A DNA stretch of 64,000 nucleotides, taken from NCBI GenBank assembly GCA_030427385.1, contig JAUHWR010000001.1, positions 62,001 through 126,000 on the forward strand. Direction: 5' to 3'. Origin of the DNA: Alphaproteobacteria bacterium (GTDB lineage Bacteria > Pseudomonadota > Alphaproteobacteria > Micavibrionales > Micavibrionaceae). This document shows, piece after piece, positions 27,520-43,906 of this stretch (positions are counted from its first letter, which is position 1; the number at the start of each line of letters is the position of its first letter). A program made the position numbers and the translations under genes. The notes beneath the pieces are model-generated. The model did no database searches. It was not told the origin of the DNA and was given only the letters and a program-made list of their open reading frames with translations.

Positions 27520-27595
27520 GTCCCGTTCGTCTAGAGGCCTAGGACACTGCCCTTTCACGGCGGCAACACGGGTTCGAATCCCGTACGGGATGCCA
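27520..27595 (+). tRNA. tRNA-Glu (anticodon UUC)
   Basis: A 76-nt cloverleaf including an encoded CCA end. The acceptor stem GTCCCGT/ACGGGAT has a G-U first pair. The anticodon loop is CTTTCAC (anticodon TTC), the T-arm ACGGGTTCGAATCCCGT and the discriminator base G, as in bacterial tRNA-Glu. The gene is intact, and its 3' end is the integration site of the island that follows. Confidence 0.95.
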
Positions 27596-27599
27596 ATTA
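27581..27599 (+). other. attL core (3' end of tRNA-Glu)
   Basis: CCGTACGGGATGCCAATTA covers the T-arm/acceptor end of tRNA-Glu and 4 nt beyond. A 16-nt version lacking the ATG recurs at 38824. Confidence 0.55.
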
Positions 27600-27709
27600 T
27601 ACTCTCCACTGAATTTCATTAAGCTCCAGAAACCCTTGAATTCACAGGACTTTCGGGCCATACTTACCTCCATTAACACTCGCTAAAAATCCCTAACATC
27701 CATGCATTT

Positions 27710-27729
27710 GGGGGTATAAAGTGGGGGTA
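27710..27729 (+). repeat. Paired GGGGGTA repeats, left end of island (probable integrase arm sites)
   Basis: GGGGGTA occurs at 27710-27716 and 27723-27729, 13 bp apart. ATTTGGGGGTATA around the first copy is repeated exactly at the right end of the island. Position between att core and int fits arm-type sites. Confidence 0.55.
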
Positions 27730-27759
27730 CAGGAAAAAGTATAACCGGGAGATACCCCA

Positions 27760-28956
27760 ATGGGAAAACTCTTTGAAAAGACATGCAAGGCGGCAACGCG
27801 AGACAAAGACGGCGGTAAGCTGTTTGACGGACGCGGCCTATTCCTAGAGCTTCATAAGAATGGGGGTAAATACTGGCGCTACAAATACCGCTCCCCCGCC
27901 ACTAAGAAGGAAAAGCTCTTGTCTTTGGGGGTATATCCTGAAATTGGCCTTGGCGAAGCCAGAGAATTGCACTCTATCGCTCATAAGCAAGTCTCGCAGG
28001 GCATTGACCCTATGGATTATAAAAGAGAGCTTGAGCAACAAAGAGCGCAGGAAGCCCGGAATACGTTTCGCGTCATGGCGCTTGAGTGGTATGAGCACAA
28101 ATTGCCTGAATGGTCTGATACCAACGCCAAGACGATCAAGAGCCGCCTAGAGCGCGACATCTTCCCTATTATCGGTAACACCCCCATTAAAGACATCACG
28201 CACCCCATGCTTTTGGATATGGTCAATGACATCCGCAAGCGCGGGGCGAATGAGCTTGCCAAGCGTGTTATTCAGATGTGTAAGCACATTCTCCAATACG
28301 CTGTTATTACCGGACACATAGAAAGAAACGTAGCCGCCGATCTATCAGGTATTATCAAAGCCAAGCCCAAAGGCCATTATGCGGCCATTGATACGAAAGA
28401 GCTTCCTGAATTCATTAAGGTTTTCCGCTCAAATCAAGCACGGCTTCATAGGCAAACATATCTTGCTGTTGAATTTATGATGCTGACATTCGTAAGAACC
28501 GGAGAAATGATTGCGGCGGAATGGAAGGAATTCGATTTTGAAGAGAAGATGTGGATTGTCCCCGCACCGCGTATGAAGATGAAGAAAGAGCATATGGTGC
28601 CGCTTTCCAAACAAGCGATTGCCGTATTGAAAGAACTCAAAGAATTGCACTCGCACCCTACTTATGTTTTTCCAAGCCGAACAAACCGTGACAATCATAT
28701 GAGCAATAACACGATCCTCATGGCATTGCGGCGCATGGGTTACGGCGGACAAATGACAGGCCACGGCTTTAGATCGTTGGCGCTTAGCACGATCAAGGAA
28801 CGCCTTGGCTATCGTCATGAAGTGCCGGATGTGCAGCTTGCACATGCCAAGCGCGGAGACGTAAACCGTGCGTATGGCCGAGCAGATTTTTTAAAAGATC
28901 GCATTAAGATGATGCAGGAATGGGCGGACTATCTGGATAAGGTAGAAAAGGGATAA
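27760..28956 (+). CDS. int: Tyrosine-type site-specific integrase (P4-like)
   Basis: Catalyses integration and excision of the island at tRNA-Glu. 398 residues, with GGGAG 7 nt before ATG 27760. An N-terminal DUF4102-like domain (GGKLFDGRGLFLELHKNGGKYW, ~18-39) is followed by a core-binding domain (~100-200) and the catalytic domain with Arg246 (FVRTGEM), His335 and Arg338 (GHGFR), His362 (LAHAKRG) and Tyr372 (NRAYGRADF). All key residues are present, so the enzyme may be active. It reads away from the tRNA, as is typical. Confidence 0.96.
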   Translation: MGKLFEKTCKAATRDKDGGKLFDGRGLFLELHKNGGKYWRYKYRSPATKKEKLLSLGVYPEIGLGEARELHSIAHKQVSQGIDPMDYKRELEQQRAQEARNTFRVMALEWYEHKLPEWSDTNAKTIKSRLERDIFPIIGNTPIKDITHPMLLDMVNDIRKRGANELAKRVIQMCKHILQYAVITGHIERNVAADLSGIIKAKPKGHYAAIDTKELPEFIKVFRSNQARLHRQTYLAVEFMMLTFVRTGEMIAAEWKEFDFEEKMWIVPAPRMKMKKEHMVPLSKQAIAVLKELKELHSHPTYVFPSRTNRDNHMSNNTILMALRRMGYGGQMTGHGFRSLALSTIKERLGYRHEVPDVQLAHAKRGDVNRAYGRADFLKDRIKMMQEWADYLDKVEKG

Positions 28957-28960
28957 GCGG

Positions 28961-29650
28961 ATGCAGAAACAGAAGAGCACCGTTATTGATTATGAAGCTC
29001 CGATTGCCTTAGCGGAGCATGAGTATTTTTACACAGAGTATAAAGATGGCCTCTCTCTCGTGGAAGCTATCGCAGTTTGTCACCTAAATGACTGGCAATA
29101 CCCGGCATGGATAAGAAATGCTCTTGGCGCAGCAATGACAAAGCTTTATGAGAGCACCTTTCCAGATACAGAAACGAAGGATCATAAGTCGGAGATTAAA
29201 ACACTCCAGAATGACTTTAATTATGAAGATAAAGAGTATGCTTTTGACCGATATAAAAAGGCACAAAAGAGCTTTCTAAAGAATTTGCGCCTAAGTTTAG
29301 ATCGGGACAATTTAATAGAAGCACATAAACGCACAAAGAGAGATCAAGAGCTTGCGGATTTAATAGCTGGTTACGCGCAGTATTCGCACACGCCCAAGCC
29401 TTCGTTTAGTGGGGTATATGCTGTCATAGATGCATTAACGGAGGCCTTAAACACTGACTATGAAACATGGGAAATGCTGTGCACGACGAATGAAAATCTA
29501 TCTAAAAACATTCTTGGCAGAGAATTAAAAGCAAAAGACATTTTTCCTGAATGCCTTAATACCTCACGCGACATTCTAATCAATATATGGAAGCGTCACG
29601 AAAATCGTCTACTCGAAGAATACGCTCAAGCACGAGAGCTAGAAGGCTAG
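28961..29650 (+). CDS. Hypothetical protein downstream of integrase
   Basis: 229 residues, no signal or membrane helix. Starts 4 bp after the integrase stop, so it is co-transcribed. Highly helical, with charged stretches (DYEDKEYAFDRYKKAQKSFL-like region around 85-105) and a C-terminal ILINIWKRHENRLLEEYAQA. No family is recognised. The position right after int suggests an island maintenance or excision role, but this is only context. Confidence 0.65.
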   Translation: MQKQKSTVIDYEAPIALAEHEYFYTEYKDGLSLVEAIAVCHLNDWQYPAWIRNALGAAMTKLYESTFPDTETKDHKSEIKTLQNDFNYEDKEYAFDRYKKAQKSFLKNLRLSLDRDNLIEAHKRTKRDQELADLIAGYAQYSHTPKPSFSGVYAVIDALTEALNTDYETWEMLCTTNENLSKNILGRELKAKDIFPECLNTSRDILINIWKRHENRLLEEYAQARELEG

Positions 29651-29772
29651 CATCGCTCTACACCTTGGCTTTTCTATTGGTCTACTGAACACCTCACTAC
29701 ACATATTTCATTCCATCTACGTGCATTAAACTTTGGGAACATTTAATTCATTCCAAAGAAAGAGAGGCGTAA

Positions 29773-29970
29773 ATGTCTAGAAAATTCCTAAGAATGTCCG
29801 AGGTTGAAGACAAAATCGGATATAAGAAAAGCTGGATATATAAGGCGGTTAAAGACGGCCAATTTCCAGAACCTGTAAAGCTAGGGCAAAGAGCGATTGC
29901 TTTCATCGAAGATGAAATTGATGAATGGATGCTTGCTCGTATTGAAAAAAGTAGAAACGTAACGGTATAA
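29773..29970 (+). CDS. alpA: AlpA-family transcriptional regulator
   Basis: 65-residue winged helix-turn-helix protein of the MerR-like/AlpA superfamily. Motifs: FLRMSEVEDKIGYKKSWIYKAVKDGQFPEPVKLG, RAIAFIEDEIDEWM. AlpA proteins activate excision of P4-like islands in E. coli. The start follows AGAGAGG at about 5 nt. Its place after int and before the replication-like gene fits a control role for this island. Confidence 0.9.
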   Translation: MSRKFLRMSEVEDKIGYKKSWIYKAVKDGQFPEPVKLGQRAIAFIEDEIDEWMLARIEKSRNVTV

Positions 29971-29974
29971 AAAA

Positions 29975-29998
29975 ACCCGCCTCAAATTATGGGCGGGT
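29975..29998 (-). terminator. Minus-strand terminator after a mini-gene
   Basis: ACCCGCC (29975-29981) pairs with GGCGGGT (29992-29998). On the minus strand the stem is followed by seven T; on the plus strand no T-tract follows. It therefore terminates leftward transcription arriving from about 30.1 kb. Confidence 0.65.
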
Positions 29999-30007
29999 GA
30001 AGAATTG

Positions 30008-30085
30008 CTATACTCCTTTATACCAAAAATTTTCTTCTTCGTCATGTTCATAGTTTTTTGGCATGAGGACCAAAGGTGCAAACAT
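30008..30085 (-). CDS. Candidate 25-residue small protein
   Basis: ATG 30085 opens a frame of 25 residues (MFAPLVLMPKNYEHDEEENF then WYKGV), ending 10 nt before a minus-strand terminator. An internal ATG gives 18 residues (from MPKNY). No Shine-Dalgarno sequence is evident. The terminator orientation is the main support for a leftward transcript here. Confidence 0.25.
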   Translation of the reverse strand: MFAPLVLMPKNYEHDEEENFWYKGV

Positions 30086-30146
30086 AGATCTATGTATTTT
30101 GATAATTATACAAATTATTTAATTGCAATTGATTAGTAAATTTTGC

Positions 30147-30184
30147 AAGTCCTGAAAACGGGACTTTTCCTTCCTTAAAAGTCC
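30147..30184. promoter_or_regulatory. Triple AAGTCC motif upstream of the RepL-like gene
   Basis: AAGTCCTGAAAA at 30147 and AAGTCCTCAAAA at 30179 are direct repeats with one difference. GGACTTTT at 30161 is the inverted copy, pairing with the first (6-bp stem). This is an operator-like arrangement 50-90 bp before the start codon. Confidence 0.4.
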
Positions 30185-30235
30185 TCAAAATTGGAGCGTT
30201 GAAAGCACATATGTTTTCAGCGCAAGGAAGAATTG

Positions 30236-30655
30236 ATGAACGCAGACGATTGTTTTGATCACGAATTCATTAATGCACATGTTTTGCTTAAATCCCAAGG
30301 AAAGCGTGCTCAACATTATCCGAAAGGCTGGTTAACAGCTTGGCCGGAATTGCTGCTTTACCTTTTTAACGATCTTACAAAAAGGGAAGTTCTTGTTTTT
30401 ATGTCTATTGCAGCGCAAACGAAATATCTGAACAGAACAAGTGTGACCCGAAAAAGCTTATCGACGAATTTAGGCATTCAAAAAAATCACATAGACACAA
30501 TTGTCAAAAAGCTGATCAAAAGAAATGCGGTTCATGAGCAAGCAGACAAAACATTGCAAATAGACCCTCGCTATGGCTGGTTTGGCAATGTCGATCAATA
30601 TCACGAAGCGTGTGACGCTTTGGACAAAAAAACTAGAAATTCAGCTTTAAGGTAA
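30236..30655 (+). CDS. Winged-helix protein resembling RepL replication/maintenance proteins
   Basis: 139 residues from ATG 30236, preceded by AAGGAAG; TTG 30233 is the alternative. The region ELLLYLFNDLTKREVLVFMSI through TSVTRKSLSTNLGIQKNHID and IVKKLIKRNAV is a winged helix-turn-helix, and the segment IDPRYGWFGN resembles the closing strand of RepL-type proteins. It may initiate replication of the excised island or act as a regulator; the two cannot be separated by eye. Repeats upstream suggest autoregulation. Confidence 0.55.
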   Translation: MNADDCFDHEFINAHVLLKSQGKRAQHYPKGWLTAWPELLLYLFNDLTKREVLVFMSIAAQTKYLNRTSVTRKSLSTNLGIQKNHIDTIVKKLIKRNAVHEQADKTLQIDPRYGWFGNVDQYHEACDALDKKTRNSALR

Positions 30656-30720
30656 AGAACAAGTGACTAAATTGAGTTAATGGTTTAAAAACAAAATGAA
30701 ATATATGAAGGAACAAGACG

Positions 30721-32223
30721 ATGAATAGTGGACAAATGGGGCAGCTAAATACCGAGTTAAAAGGTATTGGTCAATTAATTAAAGACAAGCATTCAGTCCC
30801 TAAAAACCAGCGTGAATACGCTTGGGAAGGAAAGCACGTAGAAGACTTCATTAATGACATTACCGAAGCGCAGAGTGAAAATAAGCCAGAATACTTTTTG
30901 GGCACCATTGTTTTGACCTCGACAAGCTCTAGACCCGAAGTTGTTGATGGGCAGCAAAGAATGGCTACTGCTTGCATTGTTATTGCGGCTGCTAGAGACT
31001 ATTTAATACGAACAAAAGATGCTGACAACGTTAAGAGCGGAACATTATTAAGCAACAAATTTTTATTGTTTCAAGACCCCAAAGATTTGGAAACTTATCC
31101 TTTTTTTGAATTAAATGAGATAGACAATCTTTATTTTAGAAACTTTATAATTGAGGAGCCGGAAAATAAAAACAGCTCTTATTTTAGAAAGGAAGTGCCG
31201 TCTCACGACAGATTGAAAAAGGCTTACGACATCGCATATACGGCAATTACCAAAATAGCCGAAGCGCCGCCGAATAAAGCGCGACACCAACTTAATGACT
31301 TTATTAGCTATCTAGAGAATAATGTGAAGATCATCTCTCTGAAGGCACCTGATGAAGCAAGCGCCTTTACTCTTTTTGAGACACTAAATGACCGAGGCTT
31401 GGATTTAGCAATTTCTGATCTTTTGAAAAATTTCTTGCTTGGTAAGTCTGGTGATAAAATTGAAGACGTAAAAAATCGATGGATGGCGATGAAAACCACG
31501 TTAGAAAGCTCTGATGCTGGAGATAGCATTGTCATGTATATTCGTCATTTGTGGTGCTCCGAATACGGTTTAGTAAGGGAAAAAGAACTTTATAATGTCA
31601 TAAAAAAATCGATTACCAACTCCTCAAAAGCGCTTTCTTTCGCAGAAAAGCTCTCGTCTAATGCAAAACAATATGTAGCATTACTTCAACCTGACCAAGA
31701 GTATTGGAAAGAGTATGATTTTAATGCTCATAAATATATTAGATCATTAAATTTGCTTAATTTTACGCAGCCGCGATCTCTTCTTTTGGCGGTTATGAAC
31801 AAATTCAAGCCTAAAGAAGCCGCTAAAGCGGTAAAATTAGTAGAAGCTTGGTCATTTAGATTTTCTGTAGTTAAAGGCCTTGGCGGCGCCGCTATGGAAG
31901 GTTTTTACGCAGACTTGGCAAAGCAAGTTACAGACGAGAAAATCAAGAACGCAGCGCAACTATCCAACGCTGCAAAGGCTGTTGTGCCTACAGATAAAGA
32001 TTTTATTGATGCGATGAGCCGATATAGGGTCACTAAAGCCGTTTTAGCCCGATACATCCTACTAGAAATTGAGAAAACACATGCAGGAGTGGAGAAGCTA
32101 GACTACGTACCCAATGATAATCCATCGGATGTAAATCTAGAGCATGTCCTGCCCAAAACGCATGATAAAAAAAATGGAATAATTTTAGTGAAGAAGATCA
32201 TAAGGCCTATTTCTCCAAGTTAG
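30721..32223 (+). CDS. DUF262 (GmrS-like) nuclease protein, frameshifted before its C-terminus
   Basis: 500 residues. The N-terminal DUF262 domain has QREYAWEGKHVEDFINDI and the nucleotide-binding/nicking motif DGQQR (76-80). The C-terminal DUF1524 HNH domain starts at LEHVLPK (Glu474-His475) and is then lost: at the A8 run 32167-32174 the frame shifts and ends after 16 unrelated residues. One additional A would restore KKWNNFSEEDHKAYF and join the 32238-32420 frame, giving 566 residues. Family members are GmrSD-type IV restriction enzymes that cut modified phage DNA. As it stands the nuclease domain is incomplete. Confidence 0.85.
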   Translation: MNSGQMGQLNTELKGIGQLIKDKHSVPKNQREYAWEGKHVEDFINDITEAQSENKPEYFLGTIVLTSTSSRPEVVDGQQRMATACIVIAAARDYLIRTKDADNVKSGTLLSNKFLLFQDPKDLETYPFFELNEIDNLYFRNFIIEEPENKNSSYFRKEVPSHDRLKKAYDIAYTAITKIAEAPPNKARHQLNDFISYLENNVKIISLKAPDEASAFTLFETLNDRGLDLAISDLLKNFLLGKSGDKIEDVKNRWMAMKTTLESSDAGDSIVMYIRHLWCSEYGLVREKELYNVIKKSITNSSKALSFAEKLSSNAKQYVALLQPDQEYWKEYDFNAHKYIRSLNLLNFTQPRSLLLAVMNKFKPKEAAKAVKLVEAWSFRFSVVKGLGGAAMEGFYADLAKQVTDEKIKNAAQLSNAAKAVVPTDKDFIDAMSRYRVTKAVLARYILLEIEKTHAGVEKLDYVPNDNPSDVNLEHVLPKTHDKKNGIILVKKIIRPISPS

Positions 32224-32237
32224 GTAATTTAACCATT

Positions 32238-32420
32238 ATGAATAGCGATGATAACAGCATTGCTGATCAGGATAATTTTTCTTCAAAGAAAAAGATTTAC
32301 GCTAAATCAAAGATACAAATTACCCAAACGCTCTCTAATGAAAGCAAATGGGATGCGGAAGATATAGATAACAGGCAACAAGAACTTGCCAAGTTAGCCG
32401 CAAAAAGATGGGCGATTTAA
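32238..32420 (+). pseudogene. C-terminal DUF1524 fragment of the DUF262 gene
   Basis: This frame encodes the missing end of the DUF1524 nuclease domain: a lysine-rich FSSKKKIYAKSKIQITQTL, then W-DAEDIDNRQQELAKLAAKRW, the usual ending of the family. The same frame extends upstream to the A8 run and reads KLGNLTIMNSDDN, so it is not an independent gene despite its ATG at 32238. See the DUF262 entry for the lesion. Confidence 0.8.
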
Positions 32421-32421
32421 T

Positions 32422-32679
32422 TTAGGATAGCTTTTTATGCTTGCGATATAATTCAAACGCTCTTTTTAATTGAGAGCGCACCGACACACTTAAGCTAGAA
32501 TATTCGGCTTTTCTTTTGAGTTTGAGCAAAATTTCATCGGATGATTTGGTATCTTGCACATCCACCATCCCCGCAACTCTACGCAGTCTAGAGGCATTAT
32601 CTTTTATAGCTCTCGCTTGCATATCAGTATTCTTGGAAAGCCATAGTTTGAAGGCTTCAACATCTTCACTTGAGATCAT
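32422..32679 (-). CDS. Small protein encoded after the cytosine methyltransferase
   Basis: 85 residues, basic and helical, with no cysteine and no membrane segment. The start ATG overlaps the methyltransferase stop (TAATG), so it is translationally coupled to it. The sequence (SSEDVEAFKLWLSKN, SRLRRVAGM, VRSQLKRAFELYRKHKK) resembles the N-terminal SAM-like helical domain of tyrosine recombinases or small DNA-binding subunits. No named family is recognised. Its strict coupling suggests a subunit or modulator of the restriction-modification system. Confidence 0.6.
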   Translation of the reverse strand: MISSEDVEAFKLWLSKNTDMQARAIKDNASRLRRVAGMVDVQDTKSSDEILLKLKRKAEYSSLSVSVRSQLKRAFELYRKHKKLS

Positions 32680-33596
32680 TAGGCCGCCTCACTTAGAATG
32701 ATTTTATTTTGCGCCAAGAACTCCTGTATGCAAGTGCCTATAAATTTTCCTAAATTTACAGGCACAGCGTTACCAATCATTTGTTCCATAGCTGTTTTTG
32801 ATCCAAGCCATTTATAAGTTTCGGGGAAAGTTTGAATTAAAGCTCTTTCCAAGGTCGTAAGAGGCCGCACATTTTTGCCAAGTTTGGCCGTATCATTATG
32901 GTGTCCTGTATAGCCTTCTGGAATGGGACGATTAACACCACGTATTGTCGCAGCAGGTTCATCAACAGAAAAAACGCCCCGCCTATTGTAGTTTCTCGGA
33001 TGACGATAGTAATGTTCAACATCAATGCTATTGCCCAAATAGTCTCTAACCGTCATTCTTTTTGTAGATAAGTTTTTATTGATAATCTCATCAAGGAAGC
33101 CGTCTTCCTCGTCTAAAAAACCAATGCAGAAAAATCTTTTTCTTAATTGAGGAACGCCGCACTTACTGGCATCAAGCACAACTTCTGTTAAGCCATAACC
33201 TGCTTTTTTAAATAATTTTCGTGCATTCTTATACACTGAACTATTTCTTGTCCGGGCAACATTTTCCATGACAAATAGCCTAGGCTTATGCGTTTCGATA
33301 ATTTTTGCATACGCGAATGTTAAATCCGCTCTCGTTCCCTCTTTCCTATGTCCGGCAGAAGAAAAATCCTGACATGGAGGGCCACCTACGATTACGTCAC
33401 ATTTATGCTGCTTAATCTTTTCAACAACTAATTCAACATCGGAAATGTCTATTTTTTCCGCTGGATGATCAAAGTTATTGGAGTATGTTTCAAGAGCTAA
33501 ATCCCAATTATCGCAAGCCCAAGCCACGTCAAAACCAGCCTGTTCAAAACCAAGCGATAAGCCGCCACAACCACAAAATAAATCAGCTATTTTCAT
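32679..33596 (-). CDS. DNA (cytosine-5-)-methyltransferase of a type II system
   Basis: 305 residues from ATG 33596 with AAGGGG 6 nt upstream. The m5C motifs are in order: I FCGCGGLSLGFEQAG (~7-21), IV GGPPCQDFSSAGH with catalytic Cys75, VI MENVARTRN, VIII near KCGVPQLRKRFFCIG (QxRxR-type), IX and X (RALIQTFPETYKW, QMIGNAVPVNLG). The variable region between VIII and IX is short. Its gene partner is the divergent HindVP-like nuclease, suggesting GRCGYC specificity; that is inferred. A strong promoter with two GACGTC sites lies before it. Confidence 0.94.
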   Translation of the reverse strand: MKIADLFCGCGGLSLGFEQAGFDVAWACDNWDLALETYSNNFDHPAEKIDISDVELVVEKIKQHKCDVIVGGPPCQDFSSAGHRKEGTRADLTFAYAKIIETHKPRLFVMENVARTRNSSVYKNARKLFKKAGYGLTEVVLDASKCGVPQLRKRFFCIGFLDEEDGFLDEIINKNLSTKRMTVRDYLGNSIDVEHYYRHPRNYNRRGVFSVDEPAATIRGVNRPIPEGYTGHHNDTAKLGKNVRPLTTLERALIQTFPETYKWLGSKTAMEQMIGNAVPVNLGKFIGTCIQEFLAQNKIILSEAA

Positions 33597-33609
33597 GAAA
33601 AACCCCTTT

Positions 33610-33645
33610 GACGTCAATTATTTGACGTCTTGATGCAATTGTCAA
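33610..33645 (-). promoter_or_regulatory. Methyltransferase promoter with two GACGTC palindromes flanking the -10 box
   Basis: On the minus strand TTGACA (33645-33640) and AATAAT (33622-33617) are separated by 17 bp. GACGTC lies at 33624-33629, just upstream of the -10 box, and again at 33610-33615, around the expected transcription start. The two form a larger inverted repeat, GACGTCAA-TTAT-TTGACGTC. GACGTC fits the HindV recognition GRCGYC. Confidence 0.7.
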
Positions 33646-33697
33646 GCCTGAAAGATGGTGGCATAAAAGATTATTAAGAAAAAGAAAAGGCGTACAC

Positions 33698-34777
33698 ATG
33701 GCTGAAGAACGGACTGGAAAATTATACGGTATTGAGCATTCCAATAGGGAAGGGGAGAATTTATGGGGTAAAAATCAATTTAACAGTACATTTCCGTTAG
33801 CCTTGGCTTGCTATATGAGGGACAAAGGTATTCCCGTAATATATCTAACTTTAGATAAAAATTTGAACGTCGTTCCTGTGGAGCTCTCTGTAGATGACTT
33901 GTTCGGAACAAAAAAATCTTCCGATGATTTATATTTTTCATTTGAGACAAGGTTCGATCCCTATGCGAAGCTAACTTATGATCCTGTTGAGCGTGTGGAT
34001 TTAGTTATAGCTGAAAAAGCCATTAGTAAAGGCAAGGTTGTTGCTGGAAAACATATAAAACCGTTAGAGGTTAAGCTAACGGTTGTTCCAGATCAGACAA
34101 CTCATAAAAAGAAAGAAAATGCCTGGTCACCGGAGCTGGTGATAAGACCAGCAACTACCATGTACTGCGCTTTAGGTACTGCATTATCATGTGCCGATAA
34201 ATTGGAAGATATAAAAGCTATATTTGAACCGATATGTCACAGTGTAATGCACTGGAATAATGAAACAGAGGTTTCAAAATTATTACCCGATGCAATAAAT
34301 GGACTTGACGAGTTTCAACAAGATTTTTTTAAATTTCAACAACCTACCATTTTGCAGCCAATTTGGAGAACGGAAGGTAAAAAGCCCGTTCTTGCTCAAA
34401 ACGCTTTCGATATATTTGTCTGGAGTGACTTTGCTTTGGCACGAGTTTATATAGAGTTGGCGCGTCGAGGAAAAACTCAAAGTGTTTCCCGTCATGCAAG
34501 AAGCGCATTGAGGCTAACACGTTTTCTTTTTGATTACTCTCGCTCCGGTAAAGTGCATCTCCACAATATTTATGCCGATATGACGTACTCTTATCAATCG
34601 GACAAAGAGTTTTCTATTAGTGGACAAGTAACCCACCCTTATATGAAGCATGAAAGGCTTGAGAAGCCCGTCTTGTCTCGTGATGTCGTCAAAGAAATTA
34701 TTCTGGATGGCGGAGAGAAGAATTTATCTCCCGAAAGACGCTTTGATCAAACTATATACTTCTCGTCTCAAACATAA
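33698..34777 (+). CDS. HindVP-family type II restriction endonuclease (probable)
   Basis: 359 residues. The N-terminal segment NREGENLWGKNQFNSTFPLALACYM matches what I know of the RE_HindVP family, whose members cut GRCGYC. A PD-(D/E)xK-like core may be formed by DLVIAEKAI and LEVKLTVVPD (E-x-K at about 129-131). The gene is divergent from the cytosine methyltransferase with about 100 bp between starts, and vsr follows 2 bp after its stop. Both the family and the specificity are from memory of the motif and are not verified. Confidence 0.75.
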   Translation: MAEERTGKLYGIEHSNREGENLWGKNQFNSTFPLALACYMRDKGIPVIYLTLDKNLNVVPVELSVDDLFGTKKSSDDLYFSFETRFDPYAKLTYDPVERVDLVIAEKAISKGKVVAGKHIKPLEVKLTVVPDQTTHKKKENAWSPELVIRPATTMYCALGTALSCADKLEDIKAIFEPICHSVMHWNNETEVSKLLPDAINGLDEFQQDFFKFQQPTILQPIWRTEGKKPVLAQNAFDIFVWSDFALARVYIELARRGKTQSVSRHARSALRLTRFLFDYSRSGKVHLHNIYADMTYSYQSDKEFSISGQVTHPYMKHERLEKPVLSRDVVKEIILDGGEKNLSPERRFDQTIYFSSQT

Positions 34778-34779
34778 AT

Positions 34780-35214
34780 ATGGACACATTTTCTGAAAAG
34801 AAGCGTTCAGAAATAATGAGGAAAGTAAAATCGCAAAACACTTCCCCTGAAGTGAGGTTGCGTTCCTTGCTTCATGCAAGAGGTTATCGCTATAGGCTTC
34901 ATCGCAAAGATTTGCCCGGCTCTCCTGACATTGTCTTTCCCGGCAAGAAAGTTGCGATCTTTGTTAATGGCTGTTTCTGGCATGGGCATGGCTGTAAAAG
35001 AGGACAAAATATGCCGAAAGCAAACGCTCAATACTGGAAGGATAAAATAGATAGAAACACCACACGGGACGCAAAAAACTACAAGTCGTTACAGTCTTTT
35101 GGTTGGCGCTGTCTTATTGTTTGAGAGTGCTCTATCAAGAAAAGAATTATGGAGAACGTAGCGAAAAGTATTGATAGTTTTCTGAACGGCGCCAAAAAAT
35201 TCCACGAAATTTGA
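34780..35214 (+). pseudogene. vsr: Very short patch repair endonuclease, interrupted by UGA
   Basis: Vsr nicks at T-G mismatches arising from 5-methylcytosine deamination and accompanies m5C methyltransferases. The frame has the catalytic Asp50 (GSPDIVFPGKK), His68 and zinc ligands in NGCFWHGHGC. After GWRCLIV the codon at 35122-35124 is TGA, where the family has Trp in V-W-E-C; the frame continues as ECSIKKRIMENVAKS to TGA at 35212. Read through, it would be 145 codons, the normal length. As written, the protein ends at 114 residues without the C-terminal helix. Confidence 0.85.
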
Positions 35215-35229
35215 ATTGGTTAAGCTTTA

Positions 35230-36021
35230 TTAGAAGAGATTTTCAAGCATTCTTTCATTGCGCCATGTCAAAAGAGTTAAAATCCTGCCATCATGTATTC
35301 TTATGGTTTCTTCATAAATGAAATATCTCGATAAGTCATTATCGTTAGAAAACCAAGCATCCGCAGGAATGCTATTTGGGCGGCTGCTATTTTGTTTCTT
35401 CATCAAAACATCATAAGCAATAGTGTCTCTGTCCAATCGTTCATGAGGAAAGAGTTTGCTTGGAACATCACTGTTTGGCTTAAACCATTTACGGTTTCCA
35501 TTGTGGTCGTAACAAACAAGAATACATGGCTCTGGACTAAATTCGACAAACCTTAATGCGGTAGCAGTAATGCTTGTATTAAAGCGTTTTTTGAATTCAA
35601 GAATTGCATCAAAACACGCATGTTCACACTTTCTTACAAGTGGCGAAAACATATATTCCGGCATCAAGAGATTTGAAGCAAAGTCATCTGCAATCCGTTC
35701 GGGGTGTATCGCAGAAAATCTTACATCAAAGTTACCAATTTCATCGGCTCGACATATCGCTGGTTGCCCTCTGTGATGATGCCAATGCCCCAATTCATGG
35801 CCGATGGAAAACCTTTTGCGTTCATAACTGCTTTTTGAATTTACGATAATGAAAGCCTTGTCCTTATGGCCTATGATTTGGGCTTCGCATCCATCGAGGT
35901 GCTCTTCTCTGACATCCTGTATACCACAGCAAAAAGCTAGTGTTTCCAGATCAATGTCTTCTGGCCTTTCTATTCCGTATGATTGCAAGAGTTCTTCTGC
36001 ATGGCTTAGTCGTCGTCGCAC
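35230..36021 (-). CDS. ImmA/IrrE-family metallopeptidase
   Basis: 263 residues. The zinc peptidase motif is HELGHW (His75-Glu76-His79) after a strand FIIVNSKSSYERKRFSIG, with a downstream acidic helix ERIADDFASNLLMPEY providing the third ligand. The C-terminal half (~140-263) is an unrecognised sensor-like part. Start GTG 36021 has AGAAGGAA 8 nt upstream. It overlaps the preceding gene by 16 bp and is the last gene of a leftward operon with a sigma-like factor. ImmA proteins usually cleave a repressor; here the operon partner is a sigma factor instead of an Xre repressor. Confidence 0.88.
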   Translation of the reverse strand: MRRRLSHAEELLQSYGIERPEDIDLETLAFCCGIQDVREEHLDGCEAQIIGHKDKAFIIVNSKSSYERKRFSIGHELGHWHHHRGQPAICRADEIGNFDVRFSAIHPERIADDFASNLLMPEYMFSPLVRKCEHACFDAILEFKKRFNTSITATALRFVEFSPEPCILVCYDHNGNRKWFKPNSDVPSKLFPHERLDRDTIAYDVLMKKQNSSRPNSIPADAWFSNDNDLSRYFIYEETIRIHDGRILTLLTWRNERMLENLF

Positions 36022-36446
36022 AGGATGTTTCCTTCTTCATCTATTACGCCTAGCTCTATCAAGTGTTTCAGGTATACATCCAAATCACCTTCGGAAAGCT
36101 CATTTTCATTTCGAGCGGCCATAGTAATCTTTTGAGTAAGATTATCATTAGCGTTTAATGATTTTATGATTTTCTTCTTTCTATCAAGGGATACCACTTT
36201 CATTTCTTTTTGAAGCTGTGGTTTTTGAGATAAACGCGCCTGTTTAGCAGCCTCAAACTTAACTTTGTTATGCTTAAAGACGCTATCTTTAACAAGGTCA
36301 CGCATATGCTCCATCTCTTTTTCAACATCGCAAACCTCTTCTGCAAACTCAGTGAGAATTTGGTCATCACTGGTTTCAAGAATGTCTTCAATGATCATGT
36401 CTTCTATACGTTCAAGTTGTGTTTTGTTCTTCATGTCCTGTGTCAT
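36006..36446 (-). CDS. Hypothetical protein between sigma factor and ImmA-like peptidase
   Basis: 146 residues, acidic N-terminal half (IEDMIIEDILETSDDQILTEF), lysine-rich middle (SLDRKKKIIKSLN), acidic C-terminus ending CDDD. Mostly helical, no membrane segment. Its ATG overlaps the stop of the sigma gene (ATGA) and its end overlaps the peptidase gene, so the three are one transcription unit. No family is recognised. By position it could be an anti-sigma factor or the substrate of the peptidase; that is inference. Confidence 0.65.
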   Translation of the reverse strand: MTQDMKNKTQLERIEDMIIEDILETSDDQILTEFAEEVCDVEKEMEHMRDLVKDSVFKHNKVKFEAAKQARLSQKPQLQKEMKVVSLDRKKKIIKSLNANDNLTQKITMAARNENELSEGDLDVYLKHLIELGVIDEEGNILCDDD

Positions 36447-36787
36447 CGTATTAATCCCTTTGGGTAATGCTGTTTAACCTTACGGCGAATTCTTGTCCTA
36501 ACGCTTTCGTAGCGCGTTCGGTCAATTTGCATTTCCGCGCAAATTTCATTCACCGATAAGCCGTCGGCTCTCCCAATTAGCAAAAGCCCTGCCTCTTCAT
36601 CGTTATCAAAGAGAGAAAATGCTTCTTGTAAGGTTTCGTTTAAAATCAATTCTTGCTCTTGCGATAAAGGCTCTGTTGAAGACACCTCTGACAAAAACTC
36701 GTCAATGTTGGTGTCTGCACCTGCATGGACGGCCTTGGCTTCGTAAGAGTTCTTTTTTGTCCGTATATTGCTTGCGGTGCTTTTCAT
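36443..36787 (-). CDS. Sigma-70-like factor, C-terminal part (region 4)
   Basis: 114 residues from ATG 36787, but the open frame continues upstream to 36868 without a start, encoding ERYEDQKEIGKRKC and FVVFLAGAMKSTA, which fits the region after sigma-2. The C-terminal half (DEEAGLLLIGRADGLSVNEI, EMQIDRTRYESVRTRIRRKVK) is a sigma-4 helix-turn-helix. It is probably the second half of one gene whose first half is at 36858-37040; a single extra G at 36868-36869 separates the frames. It is coupled to the next gene by ATGA. Confidence 0.65.
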   Translation of the reverse strand: MKSTASNIRTKKNSYEAKAVHAGADTNIDEFLSEVSSTEPLSQEQELILNETLQEAFSLFDNDEEAGLLLIGRADGLSVNEICAEMQIDRTRYESVRTRIRRKVKQHYPKGLIR

Positions 36788-37345: not shown

Positions 37346-37588
37346 ATGATTACATTTGAAGTAAAAGGTCGAAAAGTCAGCCAAAAGCAGTTCTTTAAAT
37401 CTATTGAGAAGAATGTCCACGATGCCGTTAAAGAACATCTTGTTAAGGAAGTTAGCAAAGTTCGTGATCCTGAAACAGGTGAAAAACCGTCTGTGAAAGT
37501 GTCCGGGAATTCTCTTGATAATTTATGTGTAAAGGTTTCTGGATCAGAAAGTCTCATTAAGCAAGTCAAGGATAAGCTAAGCGATTAG
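37346..37588 (+). CDS. 80-residue hypothetical protein
   Basis: Starts 8 bp after the small basic protein gene. The pattern is MITFEVKGRKVSQKQFF, then KVRDPETGEKPSVKVSG and SLDNLCVKVSGSESLIKQV: two short beta-alpha units with no cysteine pair or signal. The pairing with the preceding TSKRAAS-type protein seems to recur in mobile elements, from memory. No function is known. A 7-bp hairpin (AAGCTAA/TTAGCTT) spans its stop codon. Confidence 0.6.
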   Translation: MITFEVKGRKVSQKQFFKSIEKNVHDAVKEHLVKEVSKVRDPETGEKPSVKVSGNSLDNLCVKVSGSESLIKQVKDKLSD

Positions 37589-37872
37589 CTTGACAGTTTC
37601 GGCTTCATGTCACATGCTTGTCGATGCATGACACATGTCATGTCGGGGCTTAGTAACCCCCAAATCCCAAACGGTTGGCATCAACCGTTATTGGTGCGTT
37701 TCCTGAAGATAACGCACCAACGATGTCGCACTCGGTCTTATGGCCGGGAGCGGCGGTTATGTCCAAGGCTTCGGCCCAAAAGCCGTTGGCCGTTTCCCTT
37801 TGGGATTTGCGGTTACTAACTCCCGGCTGCCAGAGCGATCTGGCAGTCGTTTGCTTTCAAGACAGGAGTTAG
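37575..37872 (+). ncRNA. Candidate structured RNA / translational leader with long-range helix
   Basis: A non-coding segment dense in complementarity. Long-range helix: GTCGGGG (37642-48) with CTCCCGGC-side bases 37821-27, TTAGTAACC (37650-58) with GGTTACTAA (37811-19), CAAATCCCAAA (37661-71) with TTTGGGATTTG (37799-809): 27 pairs with one mismatch and one small internal loop. Inside lie hairpins 37670-37689 (8 bp), 37691-37720 (perfect 10 bp) and 37763-37789 (9 bp, one bulge). Downstream: 37825-37848 (10 bp). CTAACTCC (37816-23) can instead pair with GGAGTTAG (37865-72), hiding the ribosome binding site of the next gene. It could also be a MITE with 30-bp terminal inverted repeats. Confidence 0.6.
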
Positions 37873-37876
37873 AGAT

Positions 37877-38260
37877 ATGCCCCGTAAATTTAGCCCGGCG
37901 TTTATGAGTGCCTTCATGGGAATGTCCCTCATTACCCATGCTTATGCTGATCCATCCAAAATCACACAGGAGGAGATTGAGCGCCTGTATATCGATGAGG
38001 TAAAGTTGTCGGGAAAGACATTGCAATGTTTTCAGGCTGGGCAAGAGATCATCCATGAAGTGGGATTGCAGGAGTTCGAAGAAAGCGAGAAGCGCATTAA
38101 GGCGCAGCGCCTAGACGGATCAATCTTTGAAGTACTGTCAGATGATAAGGAAATGGTATGCACGGTGATTACGCGCAAACCCGCCGAATTGACGTTAATC
38201 GATGCTATCGGAAAATGGATTTATTTTTGTACAGTTTTTGCTGAAAATCACTTGTTTTGA
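37877..38260 (+). CDS. Small exported protein of unknown function, last island gene
   Basis: 127 residues. The N-terminus PAFMSAFMGMSLITHAYADP is a signal peptide with likely cleavage after HAYA. The mature part is charged and helical with three cysteines (LQCFQ, MVCTV, YFCTV). No family is recognised. Start ATG 37877 has AGGAG 9 nt upstream; this Shine-Dalgarno sequence can pair with CTAACTCC in the structured leader before it, so translation may be regulated. It is the last gene before the right end of the island. Confidence 0.6.
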   Translation: MPRKFSPAFMSAFMGMSLITHAYADPSKITQEEIERLYIDEVKLSGKTLQCFQAGQEIIHEVGLQEFEESEKRIKAQRLDGSIFEVLSDDKEMVCTVITRKPAELTLIDAIGKWIYFCTVFAENHLF

Positions 38261-38966: not shown

Positions 38967-39169
38967 CTTTATTTGGAAGTGACCCTAAAGGGGCGTGCTT
39001 GCAAATTTGGTGTTCTGTAATTGTTATATGATTTTAAGTTTTCTGCCTTCTTATCGTGTTTGGTGGTGAGTATGAGGCCTTATATTTACATATATTTTGG
39101 GGTGAAAAAATTTTCTAAAACCGTTTAAATTTATAGGTTTTTAAATAAGTTTTGATACCATTAGAGGCA

Positions 39170-42100
39170 ATGTTTAAAAAATATAGATATATTTTAAGTG
39201 CCTCTGTTGCCGCTTTTTCTTTGATCAACGTCAATTCTGCGTTTGCCGGGCCTGAAGGCGGGGTGGTTGTTGGCGGCGCGGTAGAAATAATTCAAAGTAC
39301 AAATAAGACGGATATTCATCAAAATACCGACAAAGCAATCCTGGATTGGCGGAGTTTTGATATTGGGGGGGATGAACATACACAGTTTCATCAACCTTCG
39401 GCGAGTTCAATTATCCTTAACCGTATTAATGATACGAAAGCATCACAAATTGATGGAAAATTGACTGCCAATGGGCATGTCATGCTTATTAATCCTAATG
39501 GCGTAGTTTTCGGGCAGGGCGCGCAGATAGATGCAGGATCTTTGACTGCGAGTACCGCAGATATTGATAATAATGATTTTATGGCCGGGCGAATGGATTT
39601 CAGCCATGCGGGTCGCAGTAACGGGGAGATTATAAATAATGGACGGATTACCATTTCAGAGGCGGGGCTTGTTAATTTTGTAGCGCCTCATGTTGAAAAT
39701 CACGGTGTTATCACAGCTAAACTGGGTAAAGTTCAACTTGCCGCCGCCGATACATTTACGTTGGACTTGGCCGGTGACGGAATGATGAAAATTGCGGTTT
39801 CCGATGAAGATGCTAAAAAGCTTGTTCTTAATACGGGGCAGATCAGCGCAGAAGACGGTCATATCGTTTTATCTGCCACAAGAGCCAGAAACATAGTTGA
39901 TAGTTTGGTTGAAAATACGGGTATTATCGAAGCATCATCAATGACGAATGTTGGTGGTAAAATTATATTAACGTCCGATCAGGGTATCACCCATACTTCA
40001 GGAATCTTAAAAGCAAATGGATTATTAGGGGGCGGGGAGATTTTAATTGGCGGGGATTATCAGGGACAAGGAGATATCTCAATCTCTAAAAATACTTATG
40101 TTGCAAATAAAGCTTTAATTGAAGCAAATGCTACGGAGGCGGGTGATGGCGGTAAGGTGATTGTTTGGGCCGATCAAAACACGCAGTTTGCCGGTAAGAT
40201 CAACGCGCATGGCGGCATGATGGGCGGGGATGGCGGATTTGTTGAGACGTCCGGTAAAATAAATTTAGATATTGCGTATGGCGCTTCTGTTGATGCATCA
40301 GCGCAGCATAATAGCGGTGCGGCGGGATCATGGCTTCTTGACCCATCCAATGTGACAATTACAAGTGGGGGTGCCAATAACATTCCTGGCGGTGGGGGCA
40401 CGTTCGATCCGCTGACGGATAATTATTCAATAGATGCAGCCAGTATTGAAACAGCGTTAAATGCCGGGAATAATGTCACCATTACCACGACTGCCAATGG
40501 GGGGGCGGACGCTGAAAGCGGTGATATTCTGGTAACAAATGCGACAATTCAAAAAAATGTCAATAATAATGATGTGACATTCACTTTGCAGGCGCATCGT
40601 AACATTACCATTCAAGATTCCACGATTACGTCTTCTGAGAATGCGCTCAACGTTATTCTTAATGCTGATCGTGATGCCAATATGGATGGAGCGATTTATG
40701 TTAGTAATTCGACATTTACAACCTTAGACGGCAATTTCGTGGCAGGAGGCGGATCCGGAGCTTTGGGCGGTGCAAATGGTATTCTAGGCGATGGGGATGG
40801 GACGGGCGCGGATGATACCTATGCCTATGGGAATGCCAGTTCAATATATGGCGTAAGATTTAATAATAATGCGTCGGTTAACACCGGCGGCGGATCAATA
40901 TTTATAAATGGAAATGCCCATTCCATCAATAATGCAGCCGGTGTCATTATTGATGGTAATACCAGCCTGACCACAACCAGCGGACATATCAATCTTAATG
41001 GGGAGGCCAATGAGAGCGTAGATAACATTGATGGTATTTTAATACAGAATGGTCATTTGGAAACAGATTCCGGTGACATCCGTATTACCGGAAATAACCG
41101 GAAAACAAGTGGGGTTACGAATGAAGGTATTCTTATTCAGACGAACTCAACCATTAAAGCCAATACCACAGGGAATATATTTTTAACCGGCAGCGCCGCA
41201 AGCTCGGTAAATACGTCACGCGGGATTAATTTGGCGAAGGCATTAATTAATTATAATCAAGGCAATGTCACCCTTTCAGGACAGGGTAATGCCGGACAAG
41301 GTTTATTGATCTTAAATGGTAGTTCCATTGAAGCGACCGGCGCAGGAACAGGAGAGATCACAATCGATGCAGCATCCACCAGTGGCACGGCATTGGATCA
41401 TTACACGCATGCCAATAAAGCTGTTCTTGGGGGCGCTTTGGCCAATGGTGATATTAACATCATCGCTGATTTCGTTAGCTTTGATAGTAATTTTGAAGCA
41501 CGAACAGCACAAAATATTTATGTCACTCCTAAAACTAATTCCAGAAGTATTGGTTTAGGCGGCGGGGCAGGGGATTTGAATTTAACGGATGCTGAGCTAT
41601 CCTATTTTAATGCTGGTGAAAAATTTGTTATTGGTAACAGTGCGGCGGGAACAGGGGATGTGATAATCACGAGTTGGGATTTATCATCTAAAACGCATGA
41701 TGTTGAAGTCTATGGAAATGATTTTAATATAGCGGGTGTGACGTTAGGTAGCGGCGATTTCCTAGCCCATGCGCGGGATAATGGCGTTGATTACGGTGAT
41801 TTGGTGATCACAAATAACATTACCAAAGCGGTGAATGGTATTTCTAACTTAAATTTAAGGGCGGATCGTAATATCTCCAATACGGGGGGCGCGGATATTA
41901 TTGCATCAGATGCCAATAGTGATGCAGATGGTAATCCCACAACTGATGCGGACAGCTTAAACATAGTTCTGAATGCGGATCGTAATGCAGATCAAAATGG
42001 GGCAATTTCCATTTCAGATGCAAATATCACAACTCTTGGTGGTTATTTGGTTCTTGGCGGTGGGTCGGGAACATTATGGGGAGCGGATGGTATCAAGGGG

Positions 42101-43906
42101 ACGGCAGATGATGCGGCTTCGACAGGCGCAGATCGCGCTTATGCCTATAGTAATAGCGCTCTTACATCAGGTATTAATATTATTACAAATACATCCATTA
42201 ATACAGGAATTGGCGATGTTATCATGAACGGATATGCGCAGGGCGTGGGATCGGAAAATGGTGTTTATATTGGTGGGGGTTCTAATATTACCACTAGTAG
42301 TGGCAATGTTACCATGCGGGGGATTTCTAATTCTGATACTGGTAATAGACGGGGCATAGAATTTTCAAATGGTCATGCGACAACTGAAAATGGGAATATA
42401 ACCATAAGTGGAATTAATTTACGTACCATAGGCGGCAATGTCGAAGGAATGCGGCTGGGTAATAATAGTTCGATTACATCGAGTAATGTTGGAGTTATTT
42501 CTATAACAGGGCAAAGTTCAGGAACGAGCGGCACTAGTCAAGGCTTAAATATAGCGACGGGCATTGATATTAATTATAAAGACGGTGACGTAACTATATC
42601 AGGAATCACGGCATCAACAGGAACTTCGGCATTAATTCTACAAGGTGGTGCAGATATTACCGGATCAGGGGAAGGAGATTTAATCTTAAATGCGCAATCC
42701 GGAGATGGTAACCATGGCTTTGCAATTAATGACAACGGAGATGGCACAATTATTGGGGGTAACGGAGCCACGGGTAATATCATATTGAATGTGGATAATA
42801 TAAACCTCGGAACAAACACATTAATTAAAACAGCAGGGGACATCAAGATTGCGCCGCGTAGTAATGGTGTATCAATTGGACTTGGTTCGGATGCCGGAAA
42901 TTTAAGTTTGAATGATGTGGAACTCGGTTATTTTGATGCGGGTAATAAGCTGAGTATCGGCAGTAACGCGACGAGCAACAATCTTGCATTTATTAATACA
43001 TGGGACTTATTTGGTAAATCTTATGATGTTGACGTTATCGCTAATGATATCCAAATTAACGGCCTAACGCTGGGCGCGGGAAATGTAAGCTTGATAGCCG
43101 ATAATAATGTCACAATAAACACAGCTATCGGCAATAATGCACAGGGCGGGGATACATATATTTCTGCCGGTAATAATTTTATCAATACGGCCGGGGCAAA
43201 TGCGATCGATGTCGGTACGGCGCGTTATTTAATTTACAGCCAAGCGCCGTCAAATGTGACAAAAGATGGTCTTGTTGCGGGCAATTATTATAATCAAGCT
43301 TATAACAGCGCTGCGCCTGCGGCAATTGACACGGCTTTAGGCAGTCGCTTTGTATACGAATATCAACCGACATTAAATATCGTCGCGGATGATATAACAT
43401 TAGACACGTTCCTAACTGATTATGATGATTTTACTTATGATGTGACAGGCGTTGAAGGCGGAGATAACTTAGTGGACGTATTGTCGGGAGCACCTGGCTT
43501 TACGAAAACAAGGCTTTCCCCGTCTAAATATTCGATTATTCCTGGTATGGGAACGTTGAGCAGTTTAATCGGATATAATCTTAATTTTGTGAATGGCACA
43601 CTGAGCTTACCTGCAGCGACACAGCAAATAAATGATTCTGTCTTGCAACAAATTCAAACTCCGAGCATTTTGACGCAAAGCGGCGGAAGGCAAACAGCAA
43701 ATATATTCAGAGCTTTAAATAAAGATAGGGATAATTCTACGGCTTTTAAGCAAACGGAGTTAGAACGTCAAAGTAGATTAATTCATATAAGTTCACCGGC
43801 CTCAAATCCCATTATTGGTTTGATCAATGATCATTTCTTAAGTATCGAAAAACCCATAATTGATTATTATGACTTATGCTCATTTAATATTGAGTACTGC
43901 CAATAA
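39170..43906 (+). CDS. Filamentous haemagglutinin-like exoprotein (TpsA, two-partner secretion)
   Basis: About 1578 residues from ATG 39170 (AGAGG just upstream; a TTG at 39152 is less likely). Signal peptide ends SAFAG. The TPS domain (~25-270) has the carbohydrate-dependent haemagglutination motif with FDIGGDEHTQFHQPSASSIILNRI and GHVMLINPNGVVFGQGA, required for passage through a TpsB pore. A beta-helical repeat region follows, with a ~430-residue tandem duplication (units start near residues 493 and 930, marked LNADRDAN / LNADRNAD). An MBG-like domain is near the C-terminus. No TpsB gene is adjacent, and no exosortase signal is present. It is probably a surface adhesin. Confidence 0.88.
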   Translation: MFKKYRYILSASVAAFSLINVNSAFAGPEGGVVVGGAVEIIQSTNKTDIHQNTDKAILDWRSFDIGGDEHTQFHQPSASSIILNRINDTKASQIDGKLTANGHVMLINPNGVVFGQGAQIDAGSLTASTADIDNNDFMAGRMDFSHAGRSNGEIINNGRITISEAGLVNFVAPHVENHGVITAKLGKVQLAAADTFTLDLAGDGMMKIAVSDEDAKKLVLNTGQISAEDGHIVLSATRARNIVDSLVENTGIIEASSMTNVGGKIILTSDQGITHTSGILKANGLLGGGEILIGGDYQGQGDISISKNTYVANKALIEANATEAGDGGKVIVWADQNTQFAGKINAHGGMMGGDGGFVETSGKINLDIAYGASVDASAQHNSGAAGSWLLDPSNVTITSGGANNIPGGGGTFDPLTDNYSIDAASIETALNAGNNVTITTTANGGADAESGDILVTNATIQKNVNNNDVTFTLQAHRNITIQDSTITSSENALNVILNADRDANMDGAIYVSNSTFTTLDGNFVAGGGSGALGGANGILGDGDGTGADDTYAYGNASSIYGVRFNNNASVNTGGGSIFINGNAHSINNAAGVIIDGNTSLTTTSGHINLNGEANESVDNIDGILIQNGHLETDSGDIRITGNNRKTSGVTNEGILIQTNSTIKANTTGNIFLTGSAASSVNTSRGINLAKALINYNQGNVTLSGQGNAGQGLLILNGSSIEATGAGTGEITIDAASTSGTALDHYTHANKAVLGGALANGDINIIADFVSFDSNFEARTAQNIYVTPKTNSRSIGLGGGAGDLNLTDAELSYFNAGEKFVIGNSAAGTGDVIITSWDLSSKTHDVEVYGNDFNIAGVTLGSGDFLAHARDNGVDYGDLVITNNITKAVNGISNLNLRADRNISNTGGADIIASDANSDADGNPTTDADSLNIVLNADRNADQNGAISISDANITTLGGYLVLGGGSGTLWGADGIKGTADDAASTGADRAYAYSNSALTSGINIITNTSINTGIGDVIMNGYAQGVGSENGVYIGGGSNITTSSGNVTMRGISNSDTGNRRGIEFSNGHATTENGNITISGINLRTIGGNVEGMRLGNNSSITSSNVGVISITGQSSGTSGTSQGLNIATGIDINYKDGDVTISGITASTGTSALILQGGADITGSGEGDLILNAQSGDGNHGFAINDNGDGTIIGGNGATGNIILNVDNINLGTNTLIKTAGDIKIAPRSNGVSIGLGSDAGNLSLNDVELGYFDAGNKLSIGSNATSNNLAFINTWDLFGKSYDVDVIANDIQINGLTLGAGNVSLIADNNVTINTAIGNNAQGGDTYISAGNNFINTAGANAIDVGTARYLIYSQAPSNVTKDGLVAGNYYNQAYNSAAPAAIDTALGSRFVYEYQPTLNIVADDITLDTFLTDYDDFTYDVTGVEGGDNLVDVLSGAPGFTKTRLSPSKYSIIPGMGTLSSLIGYNLNFVNGTLSLPAATQQINDSVLQQIQTPSILTQSGGRQTANIFRALNKDRDNSTAFKQTELERQSRLIHISSPASNPIIGLINDHFLSIEKPIIDYYDLCSFNIEYCQ

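Follow-up and report, generated by a model that had tools for sequence, protein, structure and literature searches.

The segment at positions 37575-37890 of the window, that is, of the whole 64,000-nt stretch of DNA that was analysed, is best explained as a leader of the C4 / sRNA-Xcc1 class that silences itself through an antisense RNA and that belongs to an alphaproteobacterial variant equipped with a terminator, with a probability that we put at roughly 0.72. A single strand, the forward one, carries a two-word target followed by a core with the C4 fold, the two single-stranded parts of which are complementary to this target; next come a terminator-like hairpin and, some 50 nt past the core, a Shine-Dalgarno sequence with its gene. 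Covariation supported the presence, ahead of the next gene, of a structured RNA leader able to adopt either of two folds. Since the segment scored below the thresholds of the Rfam models RF02221 and RF01695, shares descent with sRNA-Xcc1 and is constructed like C4 and P4 CI, it was placed as a variant of the C4 / P4-CI class.

Folding of the segment returned -139.7 kcal/mol against -97.0 kcal/mol (sd 5.5) for shuffled sequences (z -7.8), and none of 100 shuffles matched this stability, thus bearing out the original prediction of a highly structured stretch of about 300 nt. The long-range helix, previously put at 27 bp, proved real, 26 pairs in four blocks (-34.1 kcal/mol) joining GGGGCTTAGTAACCCCCAAATCCCAAACGG (37645-37674) to TTCCCTTTGGGATTTGCGGTTACTAACTCC (37794-37823, taken with one further base at each end in this calculation); in the comparison of copies described below, the own duplex of the target was put at -33.2 kcal/mol. 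A perfect 10-bp stem (TTGGTGCGTT, 37691-37700, with AACGCACCAA, 37711-37720) and an 8-bp competing stem (CTAACTCC, 37816-37823, with GGAGTTAG, 37865-37872), both of which had been predicted, were exact when read from the sequence. The presumed promoter region of the leader (37589-37626), picked by eye, contains TTGACA at 37591-37596 and lacks a good -10, and a consensus promoter scan found nothing promoter-like there. A small 5' hairpin (37626-37643), present in the minimum-energy fold and judged by eye to recur at this place in many copies, precedes the upstream target, seqA (37645-37674), in which word b'' lies in CTTAGTAACC and word a'' in CAAATCCCAAA, and whose GGGG/CCCC would also allow local pairing. 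Two hairpins visible in sequence and fold (37672-37720), CGGTTGGCATCAACCG and the perfect 10-bp stem, lie between target and core and are reduced or missing in other copies.

The core itself (37743-37827) was delimited by a covariance model match and by covariation. The cores of 25 elements were aligned (A2), and RNAalifold returned a P1 helix enclosing P2 and P3. Within A2, 97.8% of the cells were paired and 80 cells showed changes on both sides against 22.4 in shuffled alignments (0 of 500), the tested structure having been derived from the same sequences. A covariance model, R1, built on the core alone with the upstream target excluded, scored 86.9 bits at 37731-37827, the window copy being among its 25 training rows. 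Its 102 matches in 100 loci were paired in 99.2% of the cells, with 475 both-side changes against 119.6 in shuffles (0 of 500), in an alignment made to the model and so biased towards it, 16 of the 102 lying at places of training rows. In the window, P1 is formed by 37743-37750 and 37820-37827, P2 by 37751-37757 and 37782-37788, and P3 by 37789-37793 and 37809-37813; the a' loop spans 37794-37808 and the b' linker 37814-37819. Just ahead of the core, element X (CTCGGTC, 37731-37737) could pair with Y in place of Z, though covariation for this is weak: 469 of 520 cells were paired, and shuffles gave a mean of 459 and reached 467 at most.

The long helix covaried as well, compensatory changes being found on its two sides. 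Over 25 homologues, seqA and seqB were paired in 200 of 224 cells, 34 of them changed on both sides; 0 of 500 partner swaps paired equally well, and the own partner was the best of 25 in 21 of the 25. This helix is mutually exclusive with P1 and P3 of the C4-type fold, and both folds covary. In equilibrium folding P1 had a probability of 0.97 in the trimmed RNA. In the full leader its probability was about 0, and the long helix was dominant in 85 of 87 copies; when the target alone was blocked, P1 was still poor and exceeded 0.5 in just 5 of the 87. The motif [AG]CCA stands exactly one base after P1 in 87 of 104 copies (the 102 model matches, the window copy and a second copy from its own genome), against a background of 43 in 5200. 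In the window it is GCCA (37829-37832), which resembles the RCCA end after an acceptor stem and is presumed to be an RNase P signal; this sequence feature is a hint of RNase P trimming, and an arm of the terminator could also conserve it.

The 3' arm of the long helix consists of the parts that are single-stranded in the C4 fold, the P3 loop and the P3-P1 linker (a' and b'), and its 5' arm was therefore taken as the target. The best upstream fit of the 104 copies to their own antisense was -27.0 (sd 3.7), while the fit to the antisense of other copies was -18.0 (sd 3.6; 832 pairs); duplexes of -22 or better were reached by 93/104 own and 105/832 swapped pairs. Judged from these sequences, the long helix unites, in each of the 104 copies, an upstream target with the antisense of the same copy, the latter made up of P3 loop and linker, and the pairing is private to that copy.

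This private pairing bears directly on the view of the element as a stand-alone trans-acting sRNA for other mRNAs, the downstream gene being incidental. Such is the usual description of sRNA-Xcc1, which is treated as a trans-acting RNA with many predicted targets or a virulence role (PMC2996969, PMC12444791, PMC12189769): a product of about 100 nt is reported on Northern blot (PMC2996969), 212 targets are predicted in Xylella (PMC12189769), and the terminator would end an RNA of this kind. However, the antisense fits the copy's own upstream sequence, exact matches to the window's two-word pattern were limited in the genome to the element itself (the target, and the complement in its own antisense), and the gene starts at a fixed distance, so that we regard this explanation as improbable.

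A riboswitch or protein-binding leader, in which the P2 internal loop (TATGTCCAA / TAAA) would bind a ligand and toggle the two folds, appears equally improbable. The two exclusive conserved folds agree with it, as does the loop itself (TATGTCCAA, 37758-37766, at the same place in the 102 matches), which is far more conserved than the flanking helices. Against it, each copy has pairing words of its own, which change even where the cargo is retained, the downstream genes have no common pathway, and the P2 loop differs in canonical sRNA-Xcc1.

Downstream of the core, a terminator-like hairpin occurs in 87 of 104 copies, compared with 111 of 520 random places; that of the window (37824-37849) has a poor T run (1 found against 0.5 expected). 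An ATG with a Shine-Dalgarno sequence 38-75 nt past the core is found in 83 of 104 copies and at 2.5% of random places, and 18 of the 104 show no such start within 320 nt. In the window the Shine-Dalgarno sequence GGAGTTAG (37865-37872) is the complement of CTAACTCC (37816-37823), from which the original prediction derived a switchable ribosome binding site. The 8-bp stem stands in the window copy, but across the family a fit specific to the own copy was slight with the short antisense (-10.16 own against -8.86 swapped, 86 copies) and absent with the full one (-13.5 against -13.2, 83 copies). A leader acting only in cis, by hiding the Shine-Dalgarno sequence within this stem and with no trans-acting RNA, would account for the exact stem and the slight own excess; given that own and swapped sequences behave alike with the full antisense and that CTCC fits any Shine-Dalgarno sequence, we consider it less likely still than the two preceding explanations.

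The gene behind the window leader (37877-38260) encodes 127 aa with a signal-peptide-like start. The protein gave no Pfam, PADLOC or PHROG match and, in particular, no match to an antirepressor, kil or replication gene. Besides itself, one relative was found in 99 family genomes (38% over 65 aa), and it also sits behind a copy of the leader RNA, with another key. Cargo proteins are mostly unlike one another: a Pfam scan of 81 of 86 matched 40 families, the commonest in 3 members, and some matched phage regulators or the PADLOC models named PDC-S11, RmrA, PtuB or REase_II. Export-like starts (lipoprotein or signal/TM) were assigned by a crude in-house rule to 38 of 64 cargo proteins of at least 100 aa and to 38 of 381 controls, i.e., other non-overlapping ORFs of at least 100 aa at the same loci; with cargo of all lengths the count was 44 of 86. 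Among the upstream neighbours (89 of 101 scanned) were 4-5 integrases, terminase subunits and methylases, and household genes too.

Homologous cargo was then compared with the keys in front of it. Protein comparison at E <= 1e-6 returned 25 cargo pairs, six being paralogues within one genome. In 24 of the 25, cross energies ranged from -9.8 to -18.8 and were weaker than the own ones, one direction being counted; for one pair (L113/L182) the difference was 3 kcal only. The other pair (L135/L176) would cross-react (-29.4 against -30.0). At a locus common to two genomes (G099 and G100), the leader has 86% identity over 248 nt, the far flank has 94% identity over 280 nt, and the genes between them differ. 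Both address words have altered there jointly with their partners, in compensation: the first word and its partner read TTAATAA/TTATTAA in one genome and TTTTCAT/ATGAAAA in the other, the second TGTCTAAA/TTTAGACA and TGTTGGAA/TTCTGACA, two G-U pairs occurring in the last of these. In another genus the leader alone is common to the loci (84% over 213 nt). Cross-talk within a genome was not below that between genomes (-14.1 against -13.8), with 11.1% of pairs within 5 kcal of own in the former and 6.9% in the latter; selection for independence of the copies is therefore unsupported. Three short paralogous proteins of 40-46 aa in one genome (L125, L129 and L143, all G036) each stand behind a differently keyed leader, and in another (L126 and L128, both G053) near-identical keys precede different genes, each near a contig end. 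The original prediction also raised a MITE and a single-strand DNA hairpin. A reading of the segment as a MITE, or as a hairpin for recombination of single-strand DNA, would suit the dispersal of the copies, some with exchanged neighbours, but is very unlikely, and the MITE was rejected, as the inverted arms are not shared between copies but vary from one to the next and fit only within a copy, and the spacing to the gene start is fixed.

For the self-silencing antisense leader, the following course of events is proposed. The leader would be transcribed from just upstream, and many transcripts would end at the terminator. RNase P, by analogy with C4 and P4 CI as described, may trim the 5' side at P1, at about 37742/37743, and this trimming would release the C4 fold, otherwise masked by the long helix. 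Once mature, the RNA would act in trans: by binding the target on new transcripts that carry the same address, it would keep the gene off, as outlined for P4 CI. A copy entering a cell that lacks the matching RNA would express its gene until the RNA accumulates, and fast divergence of the address words would make each copy silence mainly itself and copies with the same key. Equilibrium folding showed no switch between long helix and terminator: with and without a free target, the terminator probability was 0.93 and 0.91 for the upper stem, 0.73 and 0.85 for the base. As these calculations do not explain how target pairing would alter termination, the sign of the control is drawn by analogy. 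A broader proposal, which we find conceivable though rather unlikely, is that of a mobile, re-keyable RNA gate that moves among unrelated accessory genes, silent in established carriers and expressed on entry only to cells without the matching RNA, whose key keeps changing so that copies stay independent, alphaproteobacteria having swapped a translational block for transcription termination.

The original prediction knew no RNA family with this layout, a statement that was not supported. The core topology, P1 enclosing P2 and P3, is that of C4 (RF01695) and sRNA-Xcc1 (RF02221), although the window copy lies below both Rfam thresholds: a relaxed search returned 18 bits for C4 (threshold 45; best match 37736-37834) and 20.6 bits for sRNA-Xcc1 (threshold 53; best match 37742-37836). 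At gathering threshold Rfam yielded a tRNA only in the window and nothing at the segment. The upstream-target arrangement is that outlined for phage P4 CI, which has targets seqA upstream and seqC downstream (PMC4825925). With C4 of phages P1/P7, for which loops a' and b' and RNase P processing are described (PMC5320573), and with P4 CI, the segment shares the topology and the single-stranded a'/b' complementary to an upstream cis target, the target lying upstream of the RNA in P4 too. In contrast, P2 is long and conserved in the window variant and short in those RNAs, the cargo is diverse, and there is no clear downstream target, the ribosome binding site having an 8-nt match in the window copy and, over the family, a slight own fit or none; the window cargo gave no match to an antirepressor, kil or replication gene, control of which is a trait of C4 and P4 CI.

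Phage P4 was run through the same calculations. It matched C4 at 74.9 bits and, upstream, c4-a1b1 (RF03163) at 44.1 bits, just under the threshold of 46.7, while R1 did not find the P4 RNA (6.1 bits, E 4.8). Shuffling separated the downstream target of P4 (-48.5 own; minimum -41.3) but not the upstream one (-33.8 own; shuffled mean -31.8, minimum -39.9), which therefore rests on the Rfam match and on the account in PMC4825925. P4 also matched at 60.8 bits the model of IsrK of Gifsy-1 (RF01394), a prophage leader RNA that is compared with the P4 system (PMC4825925); unlike P4, the window segment has no RF01394 match. The Group 1 sRNAs of Acinetobacter baumannii, 21 C4-like RNAs in one genome with RNase P-type 5' ends in RNA-seq (PMC5320573), resemble the present family in their number per chromosome and in a variable a' loop, and differ, when compared by the description given there, in that it includes no cis target or cargo gene.

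Common descent with sRNA-Xcc1 was indicated by R1, which found 37 of 53 sRNA-Xcc1 loci (E below 0.1), the RF02221 model and R1 matching the same places. RF02221 scores of other copies reached 38.7 bits, and up to 57.9 bits within the order; in a sample of 398 genomes from the phylum, 39 had sRNA-Xcc1 above the Rfam threshold. Both RNAs have the P1-P2-P3 core, a two-word upstream target and a position just ahead of a gene. At 30 canonical sRNA-Xcc1 loci the upstream target scored -32.0 with its own antisense and -23.1 when swapped; 28 reached -22 or better, but so did 58% of the swapped pairs. In canonical sRNA-Xcc1 the Shine-Dalgarno region of the gene serves as a second target, which is not clear in the window variant: in the 25 loci with a near start this region fitted its own antisense at -20.8 against -14.8 for swaps, and 12 of the 25 were in the best 5% of swaps (e.g., CCGAAAA-GGAG-CAAACAG). 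A terminator-like hairpin was found in 1 of the 30 canonical loci and in 17 of 20 sRNA-Xcc1-like copies from Micavibrionales, and 17 of these Micavibrionales copies, those with a near gene, showed no downstream fit (-15.2 against -14.7).

In named phages, sRNA-Xcc1 was located before the annotated ant gene of Haemophilus phage Aaphi23 (86.1 bits, with the ATG 46 nt after P1 and a product carrying Bro-N and P22_AR_C), before a KilA-N gene in Vibrio phage VPBES (61.4 bits), and, in Stenotrophomonas phage Smp131 (73.5 bits), within a CDS that carries the annotation anti-repressor. R1 missed two of these three. The Smp131 CDS (L255, 1115-1687) covers the sRNA-Xcc1 match (1299-1386), so that its true start probably lies farther downstream than annotated. 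Own duplexes, with shuffled mean and minimum in brackets, were -25.5 upstream (-17.9; -29.0) and -17.7 downstream (-11.2; -18.9) for Aaphi23, -34.1 (-24.2; -36.3) and -21.7 (-18.5; -28.6) for Smp131, and -24.4 (-16.7; -25.7) and -22.0 (-10.3; -17.8) for VPBES, so that five of the six did not go beyond all 100 shuffles, the VPBES downstream duplex being the exception. In Xanthomonas, sRNA-Xcc1 is described upstream of symE in integron cassettes (PMC12444791); E. coli genomes searched with one canonical copy gave no match.

Most of the copies examined carry their own target, and canonical sRNA-Xcc1 also matches the Shine-Dalgarno region of the next gene, ant or KilA-N in the named phages. Pairing with an own target would make sRNA-Xcc1 an immunity-type self-silencer with a concrete and easily tested target, and in the Micavibrionales variant nature would have provided a set of many antisense switches that share one scaffold and differ in their keys. 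Such a set might be used to study how pairing specificity shifts without loss of function and as a source of parts for non-cross-reacting regulators; it would also predict a behaviour for unannotated accessory genes, normally off and on at entry.

A search of the genome of origin returned three related copies, the window copy included. The second (75% identity over query 145-274) lies ahead of a lipoprotein-like gene whose product gave sub-threshold RcsF and YbjQ matches, and the third, found through the sRNA-Xcc1 model (43.4 bits), precedes another lipoprotein-like gene. Relatives of the segment were detected by blastn in 30 of 95 genomes, its own counted. R1 copies were present in 90 of 142 genomes of the order Micavibrionales (up to 8 per genome, E <= 1e-5) and in 51 of 385 genomes sampled from the class (up to 10 per genome, E <= 1e-4). 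Blastn of the segment against plasmids and phages gave zero matches, exact 17-mers of it were absent from viral contigs, and a literature search found no report on antisense small RNAs of Micavibrio. In named contigs the core pattern occurred in 18 stretches, 10 labelled Alphaproteobacteria bacterium, 5 Micavibrio, and one each Rhodospirillales, Legionellales and Proteobacteria. One locus (L119, 3988-4357, G024; the same place in Micavibrio aeruginosavorus CP066681.1, L074) carries tandem leaders separated by 278 bp; small ORFs lie both between the two leaders and downstream of them.

Finally, the surroundings were inspected. The window leader is located in the region of a tRNA-Glu island, of which no right att repeat was found among direct repeats of at least 17 nt in 27480-48000. 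The island-like block (27520-36787) comprises the tRNA-Glu, a tyrosine integrase, a GmrSD-type protein, a cytosine methylase, a HindVP-type endonuclease, Vsr, an IrrE-type protein, as well as two small proteins, one of them matching ECF-sigma below threshold. Farther downstream lies an ORF of 1584 aa (39152-43906), which from its sequence we take to be a secreted protein of the filamentous-haemagglutinin type, and the next gene after it is phosphomannomutase-like.
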